From a virus, in IMG/VR virus record IMGVR_UViG_3300035698_013809, positions 1 to 21,221 of that record: a DNA stretch of 21,221 nucleotides. The stretch is one strand, 5' to 3'. The notes beneath the pieces are model-generated. The model saw nothing but the letters and a program-made list of their open reading frames with translations. It did not search any database and was not told the DNA's origin. The position numbers and the translations under genes are program-made. This document shows, in pieces, positions 2,143 through 21,221 of the stretch (position 1 is its first letter; each line of letters starts with the position of its first letter).

Positions 2143-2687
2143 TGAGTTTTTTATTTACAGCAGATGAACACTATTATCATAAGAATGTTATAAAATATTG
2201 TGATAGACCTTTTGAATCAGTCGAAGAAATGCATGAAGAGCTTATTAAAAAACATAATGAAAATGTATGGGCAAATGATACTGTTATCCATTGTGGTGAC
2301 TTTTCGTTTGGGTCTAAGGAAAGAACATACAAAGAAATCATATCAAGATTAAATGGAAAACATATCTTTTTAAAAGGGGATCATGATAAATGGTTAGGTA
2401 ATGCTGGTTCTTATATGTGGTTGAAGAAGATTAATAAACAACCTATTACAGCTTGCCATTATGCAATGAAAACCTTTCATTTATCACATTATAATTCATG
2501 GCAAGTATTTGGTCATTCACATGGCAAGCTAGATTTAACAGGATTAGGCAAGCAATGGGATGTTGGGGTCGATAATAATAATTATATGCCTGTTCATTTT
2601 CAACAACTTATAAAAATAATGGACAAAAGACCTAATAATTTTAATTACATAAATAATTCTTGACAAACTGATAAAATTAATATATAA
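2142..2687 (+). CDS. Calcineurin-like metallophosphoesterase, 181 aa
   Basis: All metal-binding motifs of the metallophosphoesterase superfamily are in order: DEH (D8, H10), CGDFSFG (D53), KGDHD (residues 79-82, the usual GNHD with Asp for Asn), a lone His in CHYAM (H106) and GHSHG (H125, H127). This predicts a two-metal phosphodiesterase or phosphatase of the short single-domain type common in phages; the substrate is unknown. I chose ATG 2142, overlapping the upstream stop, with AGGGAG upstream, over a GTG nine bases earlier. The TGA at 2661-2663 lies in the TTGACA of the next promoter. Read as Trp, the protein ends at 2687; read as stop, it loses only eight residues. Confidence 0.92.
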
Positions 2688-2688
2688 T
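2660..2688 (+). promoter_or_regulatory. Sigma70-type promoter, perfect consensus
   Basis: TTGACA 2660-2665 and TATAAT 2683-2688 with a 17-base spacer, overlapping the 3' end of the phosphoesterase gene. It drives the small-gene cluster 2761-4063. Confidence 0.9.
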
Positions 2689-2760
2689 TCATATGTAATC
2701 AAAATAGAAGATTAAGGGAAAAGAAGTTAAACAAAAATATTAAATTGGGAGATTTTTATC

Positions 2761-2919
2761 ATGGCAGTTACACATTTTAAAAGAAATGAAAAAGTTATTT
2801 GTAATACAGTTGAACAAAAATATCCTCTTTTATTCACTGATGATGAAGAGGATGTAACTTGTAAAAAATGTCTGAAAAAATTGTCTATAGAGGCTTTAGA
2901 GGCTGAAAAAGTTGAATAA
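2761..2919 (+). CDS. Small Cys-containing protein, 52 aa
   Basis: The start is preceded by GGGAGATTTTTATC. The product has a single Cys near residue 18 and CKKC near 40-43, in a basic-to-acidic sequence ending LEAEKVE. The spaced Cys residues and the CxxC suggest a small zinc-binding fold. First gene of the 2660 promoter unit. No function recognised. Confidence 0.72.
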   Translation: MAVTHFKRNEKVICNTVEQKYPLLFTDDEEDVTCKKCLKKLSIEALEAEKVE

Positions 2920-4593: not shown

Positions 4594-5046
4594 ATGAAAT
4601 TAAATAGAATGAATAATATTGGTCAATTTAGAAATGCTATCGAACAGGTTCAACACAGTGCTAGATATATTGGTATGGATGCTGATGGTGAACTTATGTA
4701 TGATAATACAGCTAAAATGCCTGTTATTACTGCTCATGGCACAGTAAAATTACATGGTTGTTTTGAAAAAAATACACTGATAACACTTAGTAATGGTGAA
4801 AATATACCAATAAATAAAATTAAAAAAAATATATATGTGTTATCATATGATATAGAACATGGTGAATTTACAGAAAATAAAGTTTTGAATGTTATTAAAC
4901 AAAACTTAAACAAGGATTGGTGTAAACTTATATTTGACAAGACAGAAATAATTTGTACCAAAGATCATAAAATATATACAGAAAATAGAGGTTATGTTGA
5001 GGCAAAGGATTTAAAGGATATTGATATTTTCAAGTCCACATATTAG
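4594..5046 (+). CDS. RNA ligase fragment 1 fused to the N-half of a split intein, 150 aa
   Basis: Residues 1-55 are the N-terminal part of a phage Rnl2-type RNA ligase ending GTVKLHG, which is nucleotidyl-transferase motif I with the AMP-accepting Lys at residue 52. Residue 56 is the Cys of a new domain, CFEKNTLITLSNGENIPINKI (intein block A), with block B further on as CTKDHKIYTENRGYV (the TxxH motif). TAG follows residue 150. The matching C-intein begins at 5392 and ends VHN directly before SNAGVSF, the expected continuation of motif I. Trans-splicing would restore KLHG-SNAG. Ribosome-binding site GAGAGG upstream. Confidence 0.93.
   Translation: MKLNRMNNIGQFRNAIEQVQHSARYIGMDADGELMYDNTAKMPVITAHGTVKLHGCFEKNTLITLSNGENIPINKIKKNIYVLSYDIEHGEFTENKVLNVIKQNLNKDWCKLIFDKTEIICTKDHKIYTENRGYVEAKDLKDIDIFKSTY
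4759..5043 (+). mobile_element. N-terminal half of split intein, 95 aa
   Basis: It starts at the Cys codon TGT 4759-4761 immediately after the ligase KLHG motif. Block A has the nucleophilic Cys1 and the L-NG-pattern; block B has T-x-x-H. The length (95 residues) fits split inteins whose break lies at the usual endonuclease insertion site. Inserting in the active-site loop of an essential-type enzyme is typical of inteins. Confidence 0.9.
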
Positions 5047-5087
5047 TACCATAAATAGTTTCATACCTTTTTGAATTATTTTTATAA

Positions 5088-5387
5088 ATGACAGCCAAGG
5101 AAAAGTGAAACAAGGATAGGAATAGAAGATTTGTCTTGAGAAATAAAGGATGATCTGTTATGGTTGTATGAGAAAATGAATGGATGAATAACAGACAAAG
5201 TGTTTTTGATAAATTAAAATTACTGAAAGACAAAGACTGGATTTACCCAAAATGATATGAATTTGAAATAGTGAAAACTAAAAAAATGATGAATATAAAA
5301 TTGGATAAAAATAAATATGTTACATTGAAGGAAGTTGATGAGTACCTTAAAAACGGTTGAAAATATGGATTTATATTAAGGGAGTAA
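5088..5387 (+). CDS. Vsr-like homing endonuclease, probably truncated, 99 aa
   Basis: With TGA as Trp (five codons) the gap between the intein halves encodes one frame. Residues 1-36 include KWNKDRNRRFV, GWSVMVVWENEW, the C-terminal half of the Vsr/EDxHD endonuclease fold. Endonucleases of this family are known to lie free-standing between split-intein halves in fractured phage genes. The N-terminal part of the fold, with the first catalytic acidic residues and His, is absent: an in-frame TAA lies directly before the ATG and only about 40 bases separate it from the N-intein. No ribosome-binding site is visible. The second half (to LKNGWKYGFILRE) is Lys-rich and may bind DNA. Likely an inactive remnant. 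Confidence 0.75.
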
Positions 5388-5391
5388 ATAA

Positions 5392-5496
5392 ATGGAACTG
5401 TTAAGAATTGAAGAAATAGACAAACAAGATGAATATTGGGACTTAGAAGTAGAAAATACTAACAACTTTTTTGCTAATGATGTGTTAGTTCATAAT
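5392..5496 (+). mobile_element. C-terminal half of split intein, 35 aa
   Basis: Thirty-five residues ending in VLVHN, with the penultimate His and terminal Asn needed for Asn cyclisation, followed by the C-extein Ser. It has its own ATG and ribosome-binding site, so the intein is split at the gene level. Confidence 0.92.
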
Positions 5497-6126
5497 TCAA
5501 ATGCTGGTGTATCTTTCCATCAAGGAAATCTATATGCTCAATCTAAGAAGAATATAATCACCCCACAACAAGATAATGCAGGATTTGCTTCCTTCATGGA
5601 ATCTAAAAGAGATCTATTTCTTGATATGGTAGATCACATTTCATACTTTTTTAGTATTGATAGTGATGAAAACATCATAACCTTCATGGGAGAGTGGGCT
5701 GGTAAAGGGGTTCAAGGTGGTGTTGCTGTAAGTGAATTACCCAAACAGTTTTACATCTTTGGTCTGAAAATCAAACCAATAGATGAAGACCAACCTTCTT
5801 ATTGGTTAGACTATAGTTCATTGAATTCTCATTTTAATTTAAATGAAGATGGAATTTTTACTGTGAATCAATTTGCACCATTTAATATTGATATTGATTT
5901 CAATAATCCGTTAGCGTGTCAGAATAAAATGATTGAAATGATGGAAGAAGTTGAGAGGGAATGTCCAGTAGGTAGATTTTTTGGTGTAAAAGGTATTGAA
6001 TTAACAAAACATAGGATTTCCATAATTGATGGAAAAATAACATCCAATAAAGAATTGCCTGTATGTGTCGTACAAGAGTTGGAAAAACTAAAAGACGGTG
6101 TATATCATATTAGCACAACACTATAG
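5392..6126 (+). CDS. C-half of split intein plus RNA ligase fragment 2, 244 aa
   Basis: Start ATG 5392 has AGGGAG nearby. Residues 1-35 are a C-intein (block F EYWDLEVENTNNFFAND, block G VLVHN), followed by Ser36, the +1 nucleophile. The ligase body continues with SNAGVSFHQGN, then GEWAGKGVQGGVAV and FYIFGLKI (motifs III/IIIa region), to CPVGRFFGVKGI at residues about 191-202. Here the family would continue GEGIV (motif IV), but this chain instead has 42 residues with no match to the ligase (ELTKHRISIIDG to GVYHISTTL) and ends at TAG. Motif IV appears in a third gene at 6867. The ligase is thus in three pieces, only the first junction having an intein. Confidence 0.92.
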   Translation: MELLRIEEIDKQDEYWDLEVENTNNFFANDVLVHNSNAGVSFHQGNLYAQSKKNIITPQQDNAGFASFMESKRDLFLDMVDHISYFFSIDSDENIITFMGEWAGKGVQGGVAVSELPKQFYIFGLKIKPIDEDQPSYWLDYSSLNSHFNLNEDGIFTVNQFAPFNIDIDFNNPLACQNKMIEMMEEVERECPVGRFFGVKGIELTKHRISIIDGKITSNKELPVCVVQELEKLKDGVYHISTTL

Positions 6127-6828
6127 TTTCTTTCTTCTGAGTTGACCCAACATATACCCAGTTGGTATATCATCTATATTCATTCTGACATTTTTTATAC
6201 CATTGTTGGCTCATATAGTATTTTTTGTGGGGTTTTTGTTTAGTTTATAGTAATTTTTCATTGTTTTTGATGCCTTTTCTTTGTATTCTTTTGTATGGGT
6301 TTTGCCATAGAATGGGTTTTCATCACCTGATCGTGATGTGCCATACATTGGATTTGATTCGCCTGGATTTCCTCATTTTTCTTTGCGTTGTTCTTTTGTT
6401 AGAGAATCAGCATATTCTGTTTGTTTGATTGATCTTGATTTTGAGAATTCTGTTCTCATATGTTCATACTGATTTGAAGAAATTTTATATCTCTGTTGAT
6501 TGGATGAAGAAACACACATCATCCAATATGCATTTCACATTTTATGGAAATCACCGTCACTTGTAATCTTTGTTAATAACTGATGACAAATAAAATGTTC
6601 TCTGGCTGTTAAAAGAACAAGGTTTCATCTATTTTTAGAAAATTGTTGACATATAGATGAAGGTAGTATATGATGTTGTTCATAGTAAACTGATCCATCT
6701 TTAGATCTTACCAGAGACAGAGCATTATCTATGATAGAATGGTATCATTTAGAATATTTGTTTCTGGTGAAATTGGGTAATGAATTAAAATGATTGACAT
6801 AAGTATGGTTTGATTTATTTGGTTTCAT
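6121..6828 (-). CDS. HNH homing endonuclease with NUMOD3-type modules, 235 aa
   Basis: On the minus strand, with five TGA codons read as Trp, one frame runs from ATG at 6828 to TAG at 6121. Residues 49-83 carry the HNH core: YYEQHHILPSS (H52, H53), KNRWNLVLLT (N69) and AREHFICH (H78, H82). Further on are SGDENPFYGKTHTKEYKEK and GNPGESNPMYG, the NUMOD3 DNA-binding repeat usual in phage homing enzymes. It fills the gap between ligase fragments 2 and 3 and overlaps the end of fragment 2 by six bases, so it is the likely cause of the second break. A TATAAATA lies just upstream. No ribosome-binding site is seen. Confidence 0.9.
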
Positions 6829-6833
6829 AATTG

Positions 6834-6841
6834 TATTTATA
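6834..6841 (-). promoter_or_regulatory. TATAAATA box (T4-late type) before the HNH gene
   Basis: On the minus strand TATAAATA lies five bases before the ATG, so transcription from it would begin about at the start codon (a nearly leaderless message). The same octamer precedes both GIY-YIG genes. In an AT-rich sequence single hits are common, so the support comes from the shared position. Confidence 0.45.
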
Positions 6842-6866
6842 AAATTAATAGGTGAGGGAATTATAT

Positions 6867-7319
6867 ATGAAATTATTAATAGAAGATAGTAACGGTAATG
6901 ATGTTGTAAATAAAAACATAAGTTTAATAGGAGAAGGGATAGTTTTTACCTTTGAATACAAGGGAACAAGACATGTATTTAAGGTTAAGGGAAATCTCCA
7001 TGCTGGTAAAAGTAAAATCAAAAAACTTAAACCTGTTGATAATGTAAAACTACAAAAAATCATTGATATTGTCAATCAAGTAACACCAAATTGGCGATTG
7101 GTTCAAATGTATGATGAAACATTTGATATTATCAATGGTGGTAAAGGTGACATTAAAAAAACTGGTGATTACTTGAGATCTTTGATTAAAGATGTATGGA
7201 AAGAAGAAAATGATATAATTGCTGAAGCGGGGTTGTCATCTAAAGATATTAATGGTAGAATCAGTAAAATTGGAAGAGAATATTTTATGAATAGATTAAA
7301 TGAAGAGGCAGGACTGTAA
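6867..7319 (+). CDS. RNA ligase fragment 3 (motifs IV and V), 150 aa
   Basis: After 21 residues with no ligase similarity (MKLLIEDSNGNDVVNKNISLI) the chain enters GEGIVFTFEYKG (motif IV, EGIV) and HVFKVKGNLHAGKSKIKKL (motif V, KxK), then a helical C-terminal domain ending RLNEEAGL. This is the C-terminal part missing from the gene ending at 6126. Its own ribosome-binding site AGGTGAGGG favours ATG 6867 over the GTG at 6852. It must assemble with the spliced N-part to make an active ligase. No intein motif is present at this junction, so assembly would be non-covalent. The TAA overlaps the next ATG. Confidence 0.9.
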   Translation: MKLLIEDSNGNDVVNKNISLIGEGIVFTFEYKGTRHVFKVKGNLHAGKSKIKKLKPVDNVKLQKIIDIVNQVTPNWRLVQMYDETFDIINGGKGDIKKTGDYLRSLIKDVWKEENDIIAEAGLSSKDINGRISKIGREYFMNRLNEEAGL

Positions 7320-8146
7320 TGGAAAATAAAATATATTGTGGTGATAGTTTTGAATTAATAAAACAAGTAAAAAACAATTCAATTGATTTAATAGTAACAT
7401 CACCACCTTATGCTGATACAAAATCATATGGTAAGAATATCAATGTATTACATCCAGACAAATACGTTGATTGAATTATACCGTTATTCATTGAAATGTA
7501 TAGAGTAATTAAACCTACAGGTTCTATAATTTTTAATATTGATGATAAATGTTTCAAGAAATTAAGACACACCTTTGTTTTTGATTTGATACACAATCTT
7601 ACACATTATACTGATGTTAAACTATATGATTATTATATATGAGCAAAAAAGTCATTTTTACCTAATGGTAGCAAGAAGAGGCTAAATCATGTAACAGAAT
7701 GAATATTTCATTTTGTAAAAGATCAAAATCAAGTTAAATGAAATATGGATAATGTAAGAGAACCTTATGCTAAAAGTAGTATATCAAGATATAAATCTAA
7801 TATTAACAAATATATAACAGACGATAATGGTATTAAACATATTGATAAATCTAAAAAAGTGACAGCTAATAAAAAGGGTAAAATATCATCCAATTTTTTT
7901 AGATTTAATACAAATGCCACTACAAAAGGCAATAAACATCCAGCACCCTTTAATAAAGATATTCCTGATTGATTTATAAAAGCTTTAACAGATGAAAATG
8001 ATGTAGTATTAGATCCTTTTATGGGCAGTGGAACAACAGCAGAATCAGCCAAAGATTTAAATAGACAATGGATAGGGTTTGAATTAAATGAAGAATATAT
8101 AAAAATGACTAATGAAAGAATAAAAATAAAGCAGTTGTCACTATAA
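7319..8146 (+). CDS. Beta-class DNA methyltransferase (N6-adenine or N4-cytosine), 275 aa
   Basis: The catalytic motif IV comes first (DLIVTSPPY, SPPY at 28-31) and the AdoMet-binding motif I last (LDPFMGSGTTAESA, near residue 231), followed by WIGFELNEEY. That order defines the beta class. HPAPFNKDIPDWFIKAL precedes motif I as in this group. Five TGA codons fall where Trp is conserved, for example in DWFIKAL. The central region (about 140-205) should hold target recognition. No partner endonuclease gene is adjacent, so a solitary protective or regulatory methylase is likely. ATG overlaps the ligase stop. Standard-code annotation would shatter it. Confidence 0.93.
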
Positions 8147-8225: not shown

Positions 8226-9221
8226 ATGAGTAAATGAATGAAGAACAAAGAAAAATTGTTCAAAGAATTTAAAGAAAAAAACAGTGAAAAAGATTCAACA
8301 GGTCAACAAAGAAATGAAATTGTCTGAAAAACACCAGAAAAGGGAACAACCGATAAACCAAATATTTATCAGTTAAGACTTTTAATGGATCCAAATGATA
8401 AATTTTATAAAACATATCATTATCATATGTATTATTCAAATTCAGCAGGTAAGTGGATTTTTGTCCTTTGTCCTAAAACATTTGATTTTTCAGCATATTG
8501 TCCGTTTTGTGCAGTAGTATCTAAGCTTTATCTTGGATCAAAAGACGATAAATCAACAGGTTATGATTTTAAAAGAAAAACTAAACATTGTTGTAATACT
8601 TATGTTATTAGAGATTTTAGAGATAATGATAAAATTGATGAAGAAAAATCAACAGGTAAAGTTCTTGTGTATGAATTTCCTGGCAAAGTTGAATCAAAAA
8701 TTAAATCAGAAATGAATGATTCTGAATATGGCGCTGGAATGAATTTATTTGATCCCGGAAAAGATGGATTTGATTTTATTTTAAAGGTTGGTTGTACTGT
8801 ACCAATACAACAAGAAGGACCAAATAAAGGTAAAACTTTCCCTGATTATGGTGATAGTAAATTTGCAAATAAACCAACAGCAATATCTGATTCAGATGAA
8901 GTAATTAATAAAATTATGGGTGATAGACATGATCTAACTGAATATGTTAATACAATGAAACGTGATGATGATGCTATGATAGATTTATTAAAGAAAGAAA
9001 TGTTATTTGAGTTGATTAAAACTGAATGGGAAGCTAGAAAAGGTATTAAAGAGATTTCTAAAAGATCTGATGAAAAAATAGCTGAAAGTGGTAATGATGC
9101 TGGTGAAGTTCAACCAGACAATGATGAACCAACAGGGAAAGAAACTGTAGTTGAAGATGTAAAGGCTGATGAAGTGGATGTATCGGAAATGGAATTATTA
9201 AAAGAATTGGATTCCTTATAG
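8226..9221 (+). CDS. T4 gp32-like single-stranded DNA-binding protein, 331 aa
   Basis: Start ATG after CAAGGAG; TGA codons at 4 and 34 are read as Trp, which the standard code would lose together with the true N-terminus. The basic N-terminal arm (to about 30) fits gp32 self-association. A zinc site has Cys 82, 92 and 95, the same 9-and-2 spacing as gp32, with His 65/67 upstream and an extra CC at 122-123. The end is highly acidic (EVDVSEMELLKELDSL), like the gp32 tail that recruits replication partners. It would coat ssDNA at forks and work with the helicase and polymerase of this window. T4 gp32 has 301 residues, so the length fits. Confidence 0.93.
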
Positions 9222-9256: not shown

Positions 9257-9299
9257 TATAAATACTCCTTGAGTGGAACATAATTTAAGGAGTATTTAT
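9257..9299 (+). promoter_or_regulatory. TATAAATA box overlapping an RBS-hiding hairpin
   Basis: TATAAATA occupies 9257-9264. Bases 9258-9270 pair perfectly over 13 bp with 9287-9299 (AAGGAGTATTTAT), which contains the Shine-Dalgarno AAGGAG and the AT of the start codon; the loop is 16 bases. A transcript coming from upstream would hide the ribosome-binding site. One starting at the box, about six bases after it, would lack most of the 5' arm and be translatable. This is the arrangement known for T4 I-TevI. Confidence 0.75.
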
Positions 9300-10158
9300 G
9301 ATAATCTATAAAGCAACAAACAAAGTTAATGGCAAGTGTTACATAGGACAGACCATAAAATCCTTGGAACAACGAAAAAGAGAACATTCATATCCAAGGA
9401 AGAAGCCCGGATGTCCATATTTTTTCAATGTAATAAACAAACATGGACTGAGTGGTTTCAAATGACGTGTGTTATGTGAGTGTGAAACAATGGAAGAGAT
9501 GAATGATATGGAGTTTCACTATATTAAGCAATATAACTCATTTGGTTCTGGTGGGTATAATTTAAAAGATGGCGGTGAAGGTAGTTCTGGATATAAGTTC
9601 ACTGATGAACAAAAAAAGAAGATGTGTAAGGCTCATAAAGGCAAACACCATCATACGGATGAGTCAAAGAAAAAGATATCACAATCACACATTGAGTTTT
9701 GAAAAAGTGAAGGTTCAAAACAAAACAGAGAAATATTATCAAAACAAAAAATAGAACAGTGAAAGGATGTTAATTCTACATACAATTCAGATGAATATAA
9801 GAAAAAGATGTCAGATGCTGTTTCTGGTGATAATAACGGTATGTATGGTAAAACACATTCAGATATTACCAAAGATAAGATAAGTGAAAAGGCAAAGCTC
9901 AGAGTTGGTGATAAAAATGGTAATTATGGTAATACTGGTATAAAGAATCCATTATTTAACAGAGAAAATAGAACTAAAAAATGAATCATAACATTACCCG
10001 ATGGTGAGGTTAGAACCGTCACATCATTGAGTAAATTTGCAAGAGACTATGAAGAAGAAACTGGAATAAAATTGTTTGAAGGCAATTTAACAAATGTTGC
10101 TAATGGTAAACTGAAGCATTATAAGAAAATAAAATGTGAAATGGTAAAGAGGGTTTAA
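9298..10158 (+). CDS. GIY-YIG homing endonuclease with NUMOD3 repeats, 286 aa
   Basis: The catalytic domain starts at once: IIYKATNKVNGKCYIGQT (the GIY-type IIY and YIG), an Arg-rich helix (LEQRKREH), FKWRVLCEC with TGA as Trp, and MEFHYIKQYNS with the catalytic Glu. NUMOD3-like modules follow (GDNNGMYGKTH, GDKNGNYGNTG), and the C-terminus has a LPDGEVRTVTSLSKFARDY segment typical of DNA-binding modules in this class. Four TGA codons are Trp. It is free-standing between the gp32-like gene and a terminator, so it could home into a cognate site in related phages. All parts appear intact. Confidence 0.92.
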
Positions 10159-11037: not shown

Positions 11038-11385
11038 GGGGATGAACTAGATTCGACAAAGGATAGAATTGATATGTAGCATGCTGGGATTTAAGTTATC
11101 CCATAATTAACTTAACAATTATAATTGCAGATGATTATAAACAACTATTAGCAGCTTAGAGGCTGTTATTTGCTCTACTAGACATCTTATCGATTTAGAT
11201 TAGAGTATCACATTAGATAAGAAAACTCTTATGTACACCTAATAAATAAGAGTTGATTGATTAGGGTATATTAAAGAAATCAATCTGATAAGAGTTCTTT
11301 AATGAAAATAAAAAATCAGATAAGCATGTAGAATCATATTAAAGAAGTCACTTTGGACCCGAGGGGCAGATCCACGGCATCTCCA
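11038..11385 (+). ncRNA. ssrA: tmRNA (phage-encoded)
   Basis: The 5' end GGGGATGAACTAGATTCGAC matches the tmRNA start; GGGGATG (11038-11044) pairs with CATCTCC (11378-11384). Near the 3' end TAAGCATGTAGA and TTTGGACCCGAGG match the conserved tmRNA region before the T-arm. The resume frame starts at GCA 11127 and encodes ADDYKQLLAA followed by TAG 11157-11159. It would free stalled ribosomes and mark the products for ClpXP-type proteolysis. Oddities: the T-loop reads GGCAGAT rather than the usual TTCGAAT class, its stem has one A-A mismatch, and CCA is not encoded (A then CTT). The tag stop is TAG, readable by RF1 only. Confidence 0.93.
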
Positions 11386-11411
11386 CTTTTTATTATAAAA
11401 AGGTATAATAA

Positions 11412-11945
11412 ATGAGTAAATCATCTAAAGGCGGTCAATGAGAACGTGACATAGCTAAATTCTTTACAAACTGATTAACAGGACAAAAGAAAGAATTATA
11501 TTTTTGAAGATCCCCCGGATCTGGCTCAGTTGCAACAATCAATGTTGGTAATAAAGCCATATCTGGTGATATCATGGCATTAAAACCAGAAGCAAAATTG
11601 TTAATAGACTTGGTAAGTATTGAATGTAAAAATGGATATAAAGATGCAAGTTTAGATAAACACTTAAAATATAACATTTCTGACACTATTAAAGATTTTT
11701 GAATACAATGTGTGGATGACGCAGTAAAAGCTGAGAAATACCCCTTATTGGTCTTTAAAAAGCTGGGTATGAAGACTCCTTGAAATGGAATCACAAAACC
11801 ATTATATAAACAAATCAAGCCACATCTAAAAGATATTAGATTCATACATTTAAAATGAGATATAGATTATCCTGATACATATTTCTTTGAATTTTATGAA
11901 TTTTGAAAAATTATTACACCTAAAATAATCAAATCTTTAAAATAA
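11412..11945 (+). CDS. PDDEXK-type nuclease, Holliday-junction-resolvase-like, 177 aa
   Basis: Seven TGA codons read as Trp make one frame. The core is GGQWERDIAKFFTNWL (helix with conserved Glu11), YFWRSPGSGS, then ISGDIMALKP (D53) and VSIECKNGYKD (E71, K73), the D...ExK catalytic set. RSPGSGS and GD...ECK resemble the archaeal Hjc/phage PDDEXK resolvase group. It could resolve recombination intermediates or process DNA ends; a defensive or homing role cannot be excluded. It begins 26 bases after the tmRNA, with AAAAAGG as ribosome-binding site inside a short hairpin. Confidence 0.8.
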
Positions 11946-14202: not shown

Positions 14203-14436
14203 ATGAAAACAATAAAAACAATGAAAATAGAATACTGTTCAACCGAAGATAAGGATTGTCCATTTTTTGATTGTTATGAAAAAGGTACATGCTATAATTG
14301 TCATTGTGTATTAGATAAAAAAGAGAGAAATTTGGATGAAAATTGTGTTGATTGTGATGTGGAACCAATACCTTCACCAGAATGGTGTCCTTTAAATAAC
14401 CATAATGTATTAATAACAAAGGAATTAAATGAATAG
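14203..14436 (+). CDS. Cys-rich protein, 77 aa
   Basis: Ribosome-binding site AAGGAG. Ten Cys residues in several pairs (DCPFFDC, TCYNCHC, NCVDCD, WCPL), so at least one and probably two zinc sites. Acidic overall. Its TAG lies inside the helicase gene (8-base overlap), suggesting coupled translation with DNA replication genes. Function unknown. Confidence 0.75.
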   Translation: MKTIKTMKIEYCSTEDKDCPFFDCYEKGTCYNCHCVLDKKERNLDENCVDCDVEPIPSPEWCPLNNHNVLITKELNE

Positions 14437-15760
14437 AAAATTATCAGATGAACTACTAGAATTGCTTATTTTAAAAGGTGTATTGAATAACAAAGAATAT
14501 CTAACTCTATTAATGAACTCCTTTGAATCTCAATTTTTTGATAATCCTACATATAAGGAAATGTATGAAACTATAATAGTCCATTATAAAGAAAATAGAA
14601 CTTTAATGGATCCTTTGCTTATCAAGGATATGATTGACTGTAAGACAGTATTTGAAGAAATTGATACAGATGATTTTGACATAGAAGAAAATCATGATTT
14701 TCTTATCAAAGAAACAAATGCATATCTTAAAGAAAAGGCTATCAAACAGGCTATACTTGATAGTGTTGCTATTATTGACTCAAACAAGAATATAGGTGAT
14801 ATTCGTGAAAGTGTGGAATCAGCGTTAGCTAAAGATCTAACAATGGATCTTGGTACTGATTATTGAAATACAATAGGTCCAAGATTAAAAGAGGTTTTGC
14901 TGAATAATGAACAAAAGATACCTTTATACTATCCAATGTTAGATGAATTTACAAATGGTGGTGTTATTCCATATTCATTGTCATTGTTTCTAAGTAGAAT
15001 ACATGGATTTAAAACAACATTGCTTATTAACTTGATGTCAAGGCTATCAAGAAATGGAAAGAATGTTATTCTATTCAGTATGGAAACCAGTGAAAGTGAA
15101 ATAGCTAAAAGACTTGATTCAATTAACACATTGTCTGATATAAACAAAATTCATTGTACAAAAGGTAGTGTTATAAATTTAGCAAAAAAACTTAACAAAC
15201 AAAAGAGTGAACGTGGATTAATTATTATTAAAGAATTTCCTACAGGGCAAGCATCAGTAAGTGATTTTAGAAAAGTATTAACAGAATTTGGATACAGAGG
15301 CATAAATTTTGATGTGGGTTTTTGTGATTATGTGACTATTATGCAAAGTGAGTACCTTAATACAGGTAATTTATATCAAGATGGTAAGAAAATAAGTGAA
15401 GAACTGAGAGCATTGAGTCTTGAGTTTCTACTTCCTTTTATAAGTGTATCACAATTGAACAGAGAAGGTATTGCTATTGATTTTAAAGAGGTTGACTATA
15501 CACATATAGGAGAATCATTGGGAATTGCTGCAGCAGCGGATTTTATGGCTATAATGGGTCAAGATGAAGAAAAATTAATATATGAATCTGAACTTATGTA
15601 TAAAATTGTTAAGAACAGATTTGGTGGACGTGTAAATGAAACTGGAAAATTTTATGTTGACAAAAAGTCATTAAAGATATATGATGAAAGTGAACTTGAT
15701 TTATGGTTAAGTGATGCTAAATCTACTGATGATGAACGAAAAATGAGTAAGAAATATTAA
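14429..15760 (+). CDS. DnaB/gp41-like replicative helicase, 443 aa
   Basis: One frame once the TGA at 14864-14866 is read as Trp (DYWNTIGPRL); the standard code splits it exactly between domains. Residues 1-140 form the helical N-terminal domain (LILKGVLNNKEYLTLL). The RecA-like domain has a Walker A variant SRIHGFKTTLL (Lys near 195), an NVILFSMETS strand, Walker B in FDVGFCDYVTIM, SVSQLNREG (sensor/motif H3) and VKNRFGGR (Arg finger region). It matches the gp41-type phage helicase, a hexameric 5'-3' fork helicase working with the gp32-like protein and the split polymerase. The Walker A has FKTT in place of the more usual GKT/S. Confidence 0.92.
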
Positions 15761-15771
15761 AGGAGAATAAT

Positions 15772-16668
15772 ATGAAAAAAATTAATTTTAGTGTAACTCA
15801 AGATGGAAAATTATTAGATCCTAGTAAGTATATTTGGGATCTTAAAACTAAAGATTTTAGTACTAAGGAAAATAATCTAGTACTAGATTTTAAAACAGGT
15901 GATAATTGTACTTTTAAAACAGGTTATGGTTGTACTTTTAAAACAAGTTATGATTGTACTTTTAAAACAAGTTATGATTGTACTTTTGATACAGGTGTTA
16001 ATTGTACTTTTGATACAGGTGTTAATTGTACTTTTGATACAGGTAGTAATTGTACTTTTGATACAGGTAGTAATTGTACTTTTAAAACAGGTAGTGATTG
16101 TACTTTTAAAACAGGATTATATTGTACTTTTAATACAAGTCATGGTTGTACTTTTAAAACAAATCATGGTTGTACTTTTAAAACAGGTGATAATTGTACT
16201 TTTAAAACAGGTGTTAGTTGTACTTTTAAAACAGGTGTTAGTTGTACTTTTGATACAAGTTATAATTGTACTTTTGATACAAGTTTTAGTTGTACTTTTG
16301 ATACAAGTTATTATTGTACTTTTGATACAAGTCATGATTGTACTTTTAAAACAGGTTTTAGTTGTACTTTTGATACAAGTCATGGTTGTACTTTTGATAC
16401 AGGTAGTAATTGTACTTTTGATACAAGTGATAATTGTACTTTTAAAACAAGTCATGGTTGTACTTTTGGAACAGGATTATATTGTGTAGTTGTAAGACGA
16501 GATATTTATGAAATTATAGAGTTAGAAGCTGGTGTTAAAATTAAGCTTAATAATAAGAATGTTAAAGGTTATACTATAGTTAAAGATATTAAAATTATAA
16601 CTTTAGATGGTAAAGATATAGAGATAAGTATTGAAAGTTTTGAGAGCCTTAAAAAACAATTATTATAA
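15772..16668 (+). CDS. Octapeptide-repeat protein (CTFxTxxx), 298 aa
   Basis: Start after AAGGAGAATAAT. The N-terminal 45 residues are ordinary, then 24 consecutive eight-residue repeats of form C-T-F-(K/D)-T-(G/S)-x-x run without an indel, ending LYCVVV. The final 60 residues form a separate beta-rich domain (NVKGYTIVKDIKI). Eight-residue repeats with invariant Cys and Phe suggest a right-handed beta-solenoid like pentapeptide-type proteins, with one short strand per repeat and stacked Cys/Phe. Such repeats occur in phage proteins of unknown role; DNA mimicry or surface binding are guesses. Twenty-four stacked Cys in a cytoplasmic protein is unusual and may bind metal. Confidence 0.85.
   Translation: MKKINFSVTQDGKLLDPSKYIWDLKTKDFSTKENNLVLDFKTGDNCTFKTGYGCTFKTSYDCTFKTSYDCTFDTGVNCTFDTGVNCTFDTGSNCTFDTGSNCTFKTGSDCTFKTGLYCTFNTSHGCTFKTNHGCTFKTGDNCTFKTGVSCTFKTGVSCTFDTSYNCTFDTSFSCTFDTSYYCTFDTSHDCTFKTGFSCTFDTSHGCTFDTGSNCTFDTSDNCTFKTSHGCTFGTGLYCVVVRRDIYEIIELEAGVKIKLNNKNVKGYTIVKDIKIITLDGKDIEISIESFESLKKQLL
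15907..16482 (+). repeat. 24 tandem copies of a 24-bp unit
   Basis: The unit is TGTACTTTTxxxACAxGTxxxxxx and repeats exactly 24 times (576 bp) in frame. TGTACTTTT is nearly invariant while the positions for the last two residues vary, implying selection on the protein fold plus recent expansion or gene conversion. Confidence 0.95.
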
Positions 16669-17339: not shown

Positions 17340-17765
17340 ATGAAGAAACAAATATCATGTGGTGTTATTGTAACTGATAGTAAATATATTTTGATTGGTC
17401 ATTCTACTGGTAATACACATTTTGATATACCTAAAGGAATGAATGAAACTAATGAAATTCCTATTAACATCGCATTAAGAAAATTAAAAGAAAAAACTGG
17501 TATCATACTTAATAAAAATGATATTAGATATTTAGGTTTTGATTATAATTATACTAAAAATGAAGGTTTGCATTTATTCCTTTATAAAGTAGACGAATTG
17601 CCTGATATAAATTCTATTGAATGCTCTTCAAAGTTTTGTGATAAAAAAACAAAAGAAATGATTCCAGAACTTGATTTTTTCGTATACTCTTTAAATAATG
17701 AATTGGGTGTTTATGTAACTAAAAATATGTATAGTAGTTTATTGAAATTATATTTCAATGTATAA
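17340..17765 (+). CDS. Nudix-fold protein with degenerate Nudix box, 141 aa
   Basis: The N-terminus ISCGVIVTDSKYILIGHSTG and DIPKGMNETNE match the Nudix fold entry. The box should read G-x5-E-x7-R-E-U-x-E-E-x-G-U; here G33, E39, R47 and E51 are present, but the positions after Arg and after the second Glu are Lys (RKLKEKTGI). Loss of two of the metal-binding Glu predicts weak or no hydrolysis, as in Nudix proteins used as binding modules. GIILNKNDIRYLGFD and the helical end are otherwise normal. Ribosome-binding site AAAGGGAG. Overlaps the next gene by eight bases. Confidence 0.82.
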   Translation: MKKQISCGVIVTDSKYILIGHSTGNTHFDIPKGMNETNEIPINIALRKLKEKTGIILNKNDIRYLGFDYNYTKNEGLHLFLYKVDELPDINSIECSSKFCDKKTKEMIPELDFFVYSLNNELGVYVTKNMYSSLLKLYFNV

Positions 17766-18252
17766 AATAAAATGTACTAGATGTAATTTATACAAGAATG
17801 GTATATACCATCCATATATTGGGTCAAAAGCCAAATATTGTATAATAGGAGAATCACCAGCGAGTGCTAATTTCTCTTTAACTCCACCAGATTCTAAATT
17901 TTGATGTACTATGGCAGAAAATGGGTTTACAAAAGATCAATTTAGTGTTATAAATTCTATTAACTGTTACAATAAAAATAAACCTTCTGAATCTCACAGG
18001 GATATGTGTAGATCAAATATAGCAAGGTTTATTGAAAGGGTTGATCCAGAATTGATTATATGTAGTGGAAATTTTGCATTACATACATTAACTGGAAGAT
18101 GAGGTATAAATAATTATGTTAATACAATAGATGAAAGAATATTGTTTAAGAAAAAACGTATGATTATGTATTGAAGAAATACAAATACTATTAATTATAA
18201 CGATAAATTAATCAGATCAATAGAATTATTAAAGGAGTATACTGATGGATAA
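17758..18252 (+). CDS. Uracil-DNA-glycosylase-superfamily protein (family 4-like), 164 aa
   Basis: The frame, with three TGA codons as Trp, opens MYKIKCTRCNLYKNG, the CxxC of Fe-S-type family 4 UDGs, then IIGESPASANF (motif 1, usually GEAPG), NSINCYNKNKPSE (the N-C-P-like segment), MCRSNIARFI and DPELIICSGNFALHTLTG. Cys 6 and 9 plus later Cys could hold the cluster. The usual HP motif near the end is replaced by MYWRNTN, so catalysis is doubtful. It may recognise modified bases or act in DNA repair or exclusion. Start overlaps the Nudix gene end. Confidence 0.8.
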
Positions 18253-18974: not shown

Positions 18975-18983
18975 GGAGATGTT

Positions 18984-19314
18984 ATGAAAAATATGTATAA
19001 ACAATTAGCAGATATATGGAAAAAAAAATGCTGACAAATCTAATGATGTAAATGAACAAGCGTGGTTATATGCTTGTTCAGCTGATCTTAAAAATGCAAT
19101 TAATAGATGTTGTGGTGACCAAAAAATTATTAGTGTAAATGCAAAATGTAGTGATAGATGTTTTACTCAATATCCAGATGGAACAGAAAAAGATGGTTAT
19201 GTTCCATCCGATATTAATATAGGTGGTAATGATTATATAGAATTTGAATACTGTATTAATTGTGGAAAAATAGTTGGTGATTTTCCTATAAAAGTATATA
19301 ACAAAGGAGAATAA
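18984..19314 (+). pseudogene. Cys-containing protein frameshifted at an A9 run, about 109 aa
   Basis: ATG 18984 after AAGGAGATGTT encodes MKNMYKQLADIWKK and soon ends if read straight through the A9 run (19020-19028). With eight A residues the frame continues NADKSNDVNEQAWLYACSAD, then NRCCGDQ, CSDRCFTQYP and FEYCINCGKIVGDFP to TAA 19312-19314. The downstream part is clearly coding and has CxxC pairs as in a zinc-binding protein, but no start of its own. Either the A-run slips during transcription or a base is missing or extra. Confidence 0.6.
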
Positions 19315-19512: not shown

Positions 19513-19902
19513 ATGTTTAAAAACGTCTATTATGATCAATATAAAAGCATCATGCATCTATGATATACATCTGATGGTATAAACAGACATAGAGCTGATC
19601 ATTGGACCCCTTATGTGTATAGAAAAGACTCTGATGGTGATACAAAAACCATTTATGGTGATACAGTATCTAAAATGGAGTTCAAAACTTATTCATCATA
19701 CAAAGAATATCAACAAAATAATATTGAGTTATATGAGAATAATTGCAAACCTGAAATTCAATATCTTGCAGAAAAATATTATGATGTAAAAGATGAAGAT
19801 ATTATTCCACCAGATATTAAAATATATTCAATTGATATTGAAGTACATGTGGATAAGAAATTAGAAAAAGATAAAATAATAAAAATTAGGAAAAAGAAAT
19901 AA
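19513..19902 (+). CDS. Family B DNA polymerase fragment 1 (N-terminal and Exo I), 129 aa
   Basis: The start MFKNVYYDQYKSIMHLWYTS (TGA as Trp) and KTIYGDTVSKMEFKTY match the N-terminal domain of T4 gp43-like polymerases. At residues 101-112 is DIKIYSIDIEVH, the Exo I motif with D108 and E110 for 3'-5' proofreading. Where gp43 continues toward PxPxKAEY, this chain has 17 residues that are mostly Lys (VDKKLEKDKIIKIRKKK) and stops. The continuation, GGFPSPLKAEEPI, is in the gene starting at 20831. A GIY-YIG gene lies between. The two products must combine to give an exonuclease-competent polymerase. Confidence 0.88.
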
Positions 19903-19905
19903 TTT

Positions 19906-19947
19906 TATAAATACCTATAGACATTGAAGTGATAATATTTATAGGAG
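19906..19947 (+). promoter_or_regulatory. TATAAATA box with RBS-hiding hairpin
   Basis: TATAAATA at 19906-19913 is followed directly by CCTATAGA (19914-19921), which can pair with TTTATAGG (19938-19945). The second arm overlaps the Shine-Dalgarno ATAGGAG of the GIY-YIG gene. A transcript started about six bases after the box would lack the first arm. Same design as at 9257-9299. Confidence 0.65.
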
Positions 19948-19951
19948 TAAT

Positions 19952-20868
19952 ATGATAATTGATAGAAAACAACCATCACAGGTATATAAAATAACACATT
20001 TACCATCACAAAAGTATTATATAGGCATTACATGGGGTAAAAAACATTCATATAAGAAAAGATTTGAAATTCATATGAAAGGTAAGGGTGGTGTATATAT
20101 AAAAAACTGTTAAATGAAGGATGTAGCCGTGACGAATTCATCACAGAACTTGTTTATGAGGGGTCGTTGGATATATCCTGACAAATGGAAGCTGATTTGT
20201 CTGTTTTGTACCCAATAGGATTAAATGGTAATAAGGGTCATGCTATTGTATTTACAAGTGATATGGTAGAGAAAAGAAAACAGACTTGGAAAGATAGAAC
20301 TGATGAAGAAAATATGATGCGTGGGAATAGAATATCAGAAGCTCTTAAAAATAGAACTAATGAAGAAAAAGAGCAAACAAAATTAAAGATGGCTGTAACT
20401 TGTAATAATAGGTCAGATGAAGAAAAGAACATCATAATAAACAAATTCAAATCATCTTATTATGGTAGGTCAGATGAAGAAAAATCTGACACAAGGAAAA
20501 AACAACAAGGTGTAAGAAAAAAACGAACAAAGATTATTAATAAAGCAATAATACCTAAGATATTAAGGTCAGATGAAGATAATGACAAGTCAAATAAAAA
20601 AAGATCAACTACTCTTAAAAATACATTATCAATGTTTACAGAACAACAAATGAATGATAGAATGTTAAATAGTTGTTTGAATTTAACAGATGAGCAGAAG
20701 GTAGAAAGGGGTAAGAAGATATCAGCATCTAAAATAGGTAAATCAACCAATCAACAAAAGATTATGGAACAGCGATATAAAGATATGTCAGATAAAAATT
20801 TTAATATATGATGTAAAGGGAGAAAACAATTTGTCATCACAAGAGCAACAAATCTTAGAAATAAATAA
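19952..20868 (+). pseudogene. GIY-YIG homing endonuclease with an internal -1 frameshift
   Basis: It starts MIIDRKQPSQVYKITHLPSQ then KYYIGITWGKK and YKKRFEIHM: the GIY-YIG strands (VYK, YIG) and the catalytic Arg. At 20101-20113 the frame meets AAC-TGT-TAA. Moving back one base at A AAA AAC gives LLNEGCSRDEFITELVYEG, the expected middle of the domain, and the frame runs on with two TGA codons as Trp. The C-terminal part holds at least four copies of a (R/N)xx-DEEK module (RTDEENMM, RTNEEKEQ, RSDEEKNI, RSDEEKSD), probably DNA-binding. It ends at TAA 20868, overlapping polymerase fragment 2. Functional only if the frameshift is read through or is an error. Confidence 0.8.
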
Positions 20869-21221
20869 TGATGTAGTAGAAATATTGGTTGGTGATATGG
20901 AAGATTATACCAACAAAGAAGACTTTGAATATTATGATGATGATACAGAAACGTGGAAGACATACAACACTAAAAAATTCATGAAAGGTGGAGGTTTCCC
21001 TTCACCACTTAAAGCAGAAGAACCTATAACAATTATAAGCATATATGATTGGTTAAATGACCATATATATTCTTTTGGATTGCATGAATACAAACATAAT
21101 AGAAACAATCTTACATATGAGTGTTGTGGTGATGAAAAAACTTTACTGAGAAAGTATTTCAGTTTTACTCATAAAAATGCTCCTGATGTATATACAGGAT
21201 GGAATATATCATTAAACAAGA
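20831..21221 (+). CDS. Family B DNA polymerase fragment 2 (from Exo II), partial
   Basis: The frame opens at TTG 20831, eight bases after AAAGGGAG; no ATG fits the ribosome-binding site. About 52 residues without polymerase similarity, strongly acidic (GDMEDYTNKEDFEYYDDD), come first. Then GGGFPSPLKAEEPITIISIY takes up the exonuclease domain where fragment 1 stopped. The sequence reaches DVYTGWNISLNK (Exo II, TGWNI) and leaves the window. The remaining exonuclease and polymerase domains should lie downstream. The acidic lead and the basic tail of fragment 1 (19902) could pair. Confidence 0.85.
   Translation, partial: MSSQEQQILEINNDVVEILVGDMEDYTNKEDFEYYDDDTETWKTYNTKKFMKGGGFPSPLKAEEPITIISIYDWLNDHIYSFGLHEYKHNRNNLTYECCGDEKTLLRKYFSFTHKNAPDVYTGWNISLNK

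Follow-up and report, generated by a model that had tools for sequence, protein, structure and literature searches.

The DNA analyzed here, referred to as the window, is the whole of IMG/VR virus record IMGVR_UViG_3300035698_013809, a linear fragment of 21221 bases. At its right edge it carries the start of a gp43-type DNA polymerase gene that is broken in the exonuclease domain, after the Exo I strand and before the one that follows, with a probable GIY-YIG homing endonuclease gene in the gap. We consider it probable that the homing endonuclease gene was inserted into a native loop of the exonuclease domain, giving a two-cistron polymerase whose chains re-associate. Events of this kind are already known, and the site differs from those of the cases compared below.

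The polymerase gene is broken after Exo I

Both the N-terminal domain and Exo I of a gp43-type polymerase are present in fragment 1 (Table 1), whose C-terminal end is YSIDIEVHVDKKLEKDKIIKIRKKK, 18 residues past DIEV. Fragment 2, whose N-terminus reads MSSQEQQ...KKFMKGGGFPSPLKAEEPITIISIYD, matches the profiles PF03104 (29 bits) and phrog_262 (E 1.9e-16). The closest relative found, L001, is 65-70% identical to the window polymerase: 65% over residues 1-113 of fragment 1, and 68% from residue 54 of fragment 2 onward. At the corresponding site of L001 the two strands are joined without interruption by DIEVNTVNSPGVFPSP, and other relatives are also uninterrupted there. The initial reading of a family B polymerase broken after Exo I is confirmed. 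A profile of the relatives matches RB69 gp43, and the alignment places the break at about residue 117 in RB69 gp43 numbering, in the turn after V117, past the DIEV of Exo I and before the next strand. The Exo motifs are catalytic.

As in a split gene 43, there are two cistrons, each with its own start (ATG at 19513 and TTG at 20831). A Shine-Dalgarno sequence comparable to that of fragment 2, at 4-11 bases upstream, was found for only 3 of the 518 TTGs on the same strand. Because fragment 2 has its own Shine-Dalgarno sequence and TTG start, fragments 1 and 2 are likely to be separately translated chains. The substitution rates relative to L001 (dN 0.25 and dS 0.82 for fragment 1; dN 0.22 with saturated dS for fragment 2) indicate purifying selection on both parts across the lineage; as a lineage average, this gives no date for the insertion and is no sign of constraint after the split.

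Gene order and genetic code

The window contains a partial set of T4-like replication genes, with a gp32-like protein (8385-9221) and a gp41-like helicase (14429-15760) in addition to the polymerase start. The order gp41, the ORF at 17719-18249 and polymerase is kept between the window and L001, at 58-70% amino-acid identity.

TGA is best read as tryptophan in this phage, because profile matches span TGA-containing frames and TGA terminates none of the 11 genes examined. The ORF at 11412-11942, with seven in-frame TGA codons, is spanned by a PDDEXK_15 match (78.6 bits, residues 4-172), and the one at 7319-8143, with five, by a match to the methyltransferase family phrog_67 (210 bits, residues 1-269). 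Fragment 1 of the polymerase stays open only if its codon 17, a TGA, is read as Trp, the residue found there in all aligned relatives. L001 likewise reads TGA as Trp, since its polymerase has a TGA at the W of TGWN (W190), a position invariant among relatives. A search of the window for a tRNA gene that would account for the recoding found none.

The probable GIY-YIG endonuclease gene in the gap

The gap is nearly all endonuclease gene: only 49 bases separate the stop codon of fragment 1 from the endonuclease ATG, and if TGA is taken as Trp the endonuclease gene extends at its 3' end into the beginning of fragment 2. The sequence-only reading had placed a GIY-YIG gene in this gap. Such a gene is probably present, but not as a single open frame, the frame being broken at an A-run (20101-20107). 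Residues of the GIY-YIG catalytic type lie on either side of this frame break. The first piece (53 aa) matches the homing endonuclease family phrog_314 (E 0.0048) and scores 16 bits with PF01541, under the cut-off of 22.6. The second piece has no profile match, and no relatives of the C-terminal part could be confirmed among viral contigs. The A-run has the canonical heptamer form A AAA AAC, read in the zero frame, and a -1 ribosomal frameshift there would bring the endonuclease back into one frame; the heptamer occurs 18 times on the same strand, and A-runs also gather indels. A second A-run frame break was observed at about 19020-19028, in the ORF at about 18982-19314, about 1.1 kb from the first. 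These frame breaks may reflect sequencing error, decay or frameshifting.

Neither an intron nor an intein was detected at the break. No group I intron was found with Rfam (up to E 1) or in a dedicated group I search (RF00028), and neither polymerase fragment matches TIGR01445 or TIGR01443, both of which do match the RNA ligase of the same window. The inserted element looks like a free-standing homing endonuclease gene of the T4 type, outside intron or intein.

The endonuclease gene is preceded by the T4-type late promoter motif TATAAATA and by a predicted RNA hairpin that pairs the AGG of its AGGAG ribosome-binding site (19943-19947). On its own, TATAAATA is no rarer than expected by chance in AT-rich sequence, and it is informative only together with the hairpin. 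A second GIY-YIG gene (GIY-YIG 34.9 bits, NUMOD3 59.1 bits) is likewise preceded by TATAAATA and a ribosome-site hairpin; it lies right behind gp32, the place of segG in T4. The window contains just these two cases of the layout, whereas at least one was seen in 8 of 1000 shuffled sequences and two in none of the 1000, for a pattern defined after both cases had been seen. In this layout the two GIY-YIG genes of the window resemble I-TevI, segB and mobE of phage Aeh1, in which the ribosome site is hidden in read-through RNA and not in late RNA (PMC2988022). In the stretch from fragment 1 to the endonuclease gene, GACATTGAAGTG resembles the DIEV codons and was also considered as a homing-site-like operator in the manner of I-TevI. 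This idea was dropped, since the likeness did not reach significance when compared with the exon of the window itself (p 0.38-0.64) and was only weak for L001 (p 0.01-0.09).

Table 1. Features of the window around the polymerase break and the second GIY-YIG gene, and interruptions before motif C in related polymerases (coordinates of each contig)
Sequence	Feature	Position	Strand	Basis or remark
Window	Polymerase fragment 1, N-terminal domain and Exo I (DIEV)	19513..19902	+	129 aa, ATG to TAA
Window	Lys-rich 17-residue end of fragment 1, read as first loop half, origin uncertain	19849..19899	+	Net charge +6
Window	TATAAATA, T4-type late promoter motif	19906..19913	+	Pattern search
Window	RNA hairpin before endonuclease gene	19914..19945	+	Fold -7.6 kcal/mol, z -1.98
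Window	GIY-YIG homing endonuclease gene, two frames	19952..20868	+	19952-20113, then frame of 20086-20868 (TGA = Trp)
Window	Shine-Dalgarno AAGGGAG of fragment 2	20816..20822	+	8 bases before TTG start
Window	Polymerase fragment 2, exonuclease domain from loop onward	20831..21220	+	TTG start, open at contig end before Exo II
Window	Acidic start of fragment 2, read as second loop half	20831..20989	+	Mendera loop similarity
Window	Second GIY-YIG gene element (gene 9298-10158), behind gp32	9257..10158	+	Same layout
L003	Motif C split	7765		ATGA overlap of stop and start
L010	Motif C split	6260		Overlapping stop/start
L017	Motif C split	6744		Overlapping stop/start
L009	Motif C split	~2697		Short gap
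L006	Motif C split	6987-7883		HNH-like gene between
L011	Motif C split	6727-7395		GIY-YIG gene between
L019	Motif C split	2360-2800		Insert between
L001	Motif C interruption	6890		

The charged tails and the exonuclease loop

The two fragments have oppositely charged ends at the break. The Lys-rich 17-mer at the end of fragment 1, already pointed out in the sequence-only reading, has a net charge that is reached by only 0.7% of the 17-mers in the window proteins. The same reading had described about 50 acidic residues at the start of fragment 2; the start is indeed acidic, with a net charge of -10 over the first 50 residues (lowest 1% of 50-mers in the window proteins), the count being 14 Asp/Glu among these 50. 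The PHROG 262 alignment begins at residue 26 of fragment 2.

The loop that follows the Exo I strand is short in most relatives, and in several intact polymerases it is long, with 60 aa in Stenotrophomonas phage Mendera, 58 aa in Xanthomonas phage X1, 68 aa in contig L003, whose polymerase is intact at the loop, and about 75 aa in the Ackermannviridae. The acidic part of fragment 2 aligns with the Mendera loop (VGDMEDYTNKEDFEYYDDDTETW and VGEIRNYDGAAQYEVYDLMHDRW, respectively; shuffle p 0.002), and its comparison with the X1 and L003 loops gave shuffle p values of about 0.07. The intact L003 loop has a charge of +3 over its first 20 residues and -6 over the remainder, and the joined window loop would have the same basic-then-acidic polarity (+6 and then -9). 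In an AlphaFold model of L003 both flanking strands are formed and the loop is mostly of low confidence. The simplest reading is that the tails are the two halves of a pre-existing native loop, because intact polymerases carry long loops at this place, the acidic part resembles the Mendera loop and the L003 loop has the same polarity. Since the Lys-rich half had no significant match among the known loops, part of this tail may derive from the insertion and consist of endonuclease-derived residues. A search for further long-loop relatives like L003 returned only L003, and a scan for the pattern MFKNVYYD gave no clade member besides those already found. As no relative with the window-type loop unbroken was found, the exact insertion points are not fixed.

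Alternative explanations

The charged tails had suggested electrostatic docking of the two chains, that is, that the tails arose at the break as docking handles. In charge, each tail ranks within roughly the extreme 1% of the window, and in Aeh1 NrdA tails at the break reportedly help in assembly. This explanation is nevertheless not supported and quite unlikely: long, largely acidic loops occupy the same place in intact polymerases, the polarity of charge is the same in the unbroken L003 loop, and L003, L010 and L017, whose polymerases are split before motif C, do without such tails at that break. The insert could instead be a divergent group I intron that escaped detection and carries the GIY-YIG ORF, with splicing giving one continuous polymerase. 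GIY-YIG genes frequently reside in introns, and gene 43 is reported to contain group I introns in Aeromonas phage 25 (in 43B) and in phage JSE (PMC2993671). However, in addition to the negative intron searches, the endonuclease gene leaves little space in the gap for an intron core and fragment 2 carries its own ribosome site, so that splicing appears highly unlikely.

The polymerase gene might also be inactivated, either as a decaying copy or in a dead phage variant, with a working polymerase elsewhere or absent. The frame breaks of the endonuclease gene itself and of the ORF at about 18982-19314 would fit such decay, as would the small share of such a genome that the contig represents. On the other side, with TGA read as Trp both polymerase fragments are open across their entire visible length, the start site of fragment 2 is good, and no second polymerase was found in the window, within that small part of the genome; we regard inactivation as unlikely. 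We give very little credence to the idea that errors in sequencing or in metagenome assembly produced the break or part of it. The two A-run frame breaks, about 1.1 kb apart, do suggest indel noise, and the site is close to the contig end, but indel noise does not create a gene with a promoter, a hairpin and a new start site, and the synteny with L001 on the left continues up to the polymerase.

Proposed origin of the two-cistron polymerase

The explanation that we favor is the insertion of the homing endonuclease gene into the native loop. A free-standing GIY-YIG gene, equipped with a late promoter of its own and a hairpin that blocks translation, would have entered the gp43-type polymerase gene at the long, variable loop that connects the Exo I strand to the following one in the exonuclease domain. 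Fragment 1, with the N-terminal domain and Exo I, would terminate at the stop codon at the insertion, and fragment 2 would re-initiate from its Shine-Dalgarno sequence and TTG codon. The two chains would most likely re-associate through the contacts of the normal fold, with the loop halves as dangling tails, so that Exo I of chain 1 would meet Exo II and Exo III of chain 2. We infer the insertion as the cause, as well as the translation of both parts, their re-assembly and their activity; the precedents of phage 25 43A/43B and Aeh1 NrdA argue by analogy for the re-assembly. Against the insertion stand the frame break of the endonuclease gene and its weak profile scores, and a contig that stops short of Exo II, Exo III and the polymerase motifs A-C. 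More doubtful, although conceivable, is the further step that the phage replicates with an exonuclease site made from two chains, one with Exo I and the other with Exo II and III, or with three chains if it shares a motif C break of the L001 type.

If both chains are made and cooperate, the proofreading site of a replicative polymerase would be spread over two polypeptides, and omission of chain 1 could reveal what proofreading and the N-terminal domain add to replication. A further suggestion from this arrangement is that polymerase loops already tolerant of insertions are where homing endonuclease genes settle.

Comparison with known split genes

Aeromonas phages 44RR2.8t and 25 have gene 43 in two parts, 43A and 43B, and phage 25 also has seg43 (PMC2988022; NC_005135), in agreement with the sequence-only reading, which had referred to Aeromonas T4-like phages with an endonuclease gene between the two parts of gp43. 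For phage 25, the two gp43 chains are reported to co-purify and to be active as a polymerase (PMC2988022). The window resembles 43A/43B in having a gp43-type gene in two cistrons that needs no splicing, with a probable GIY-YIG gene in the gap where phage 25 has one. It differs in the position of the break, which in 44RR gene 43 falls after 498 aa and in the window, as had been suggested, further toward the N-terminus, at about residue 117. In addition, the window phage is TGA-recoded, unlike the Aeromonas case, and its endonuclease gene has a late promoter and a hairpin predicted to hide the ribosome site, whereas the seg43 hairpin is said not to hide its site (PMC2988022).

In Aeromonas phage Aeh1 the nrdA gene is split by mobE, and the split NrdA works (PMC2988022, PMC3653736). 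Here too a free-standing endonuclease gene breaks the gene of an essential enzyme without intron or intein, and translation of the endonuclease is controlled by a hairpin. However, mobE encodes an HNH endonuclease, its target is ribonucleotide reductase and function has been shown, whereas the window combines a GIY-YIG gene with a polymerase. In the papers searched, which did not include the main ones on split gene 43, nothing was found that describes a break at this place, between Exo I and the strand that follows.

A second recurrent split in the same polymerase clade

Immediately ahead of motif C (DTDS, palm), a further break is seen repeatedly, in L003, L006, L009, L010, L011, L017 and L019 (Table 1), and the L001 and L002 polymerases are also interrupted before motif C. 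The motif C split affects the same polymerase clade and also gives two cistrons, but it lies about 500 residues further on than the break in the window. Together, the two sites hint at a polymerase gene that has been repeatedly broken and yet survives. Intein-like inserts with a Cys start and a VHN end were also observed in the same polymerase, in L002 (6592-7560) and L020 (3966-4988), at GWN^C near Exo II.

Other features of the window

The RNA ligase gene (4594-6126) is itself fragmented and contains a split intein, whose N-half comes after KLHG (TIGR01445, 30.2 bits) and whose C-half precedes the remaining ligase (TIGR01443, 25.1 bits), both above cut-off. An ORF for a Vsr/MTES_1575-like nuclease (5088-5387) lies between the intein halves. 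Fractured genes with split inteins are known from phage metagenomes, and this RNA ligase gene resembles them.

A phage-borne tmRNA gene was identified at 11038-11388 (Rfam RF00023, 99 bits). It was missed by ARAGORN; its tag is readable and ends in ADDYKQLLAA-stop (11127-11159). Finally, the protein encoded at 15772-16668 consists largely of repeats of a CTFKTG/CTFDTS-like unit of about eight residues.
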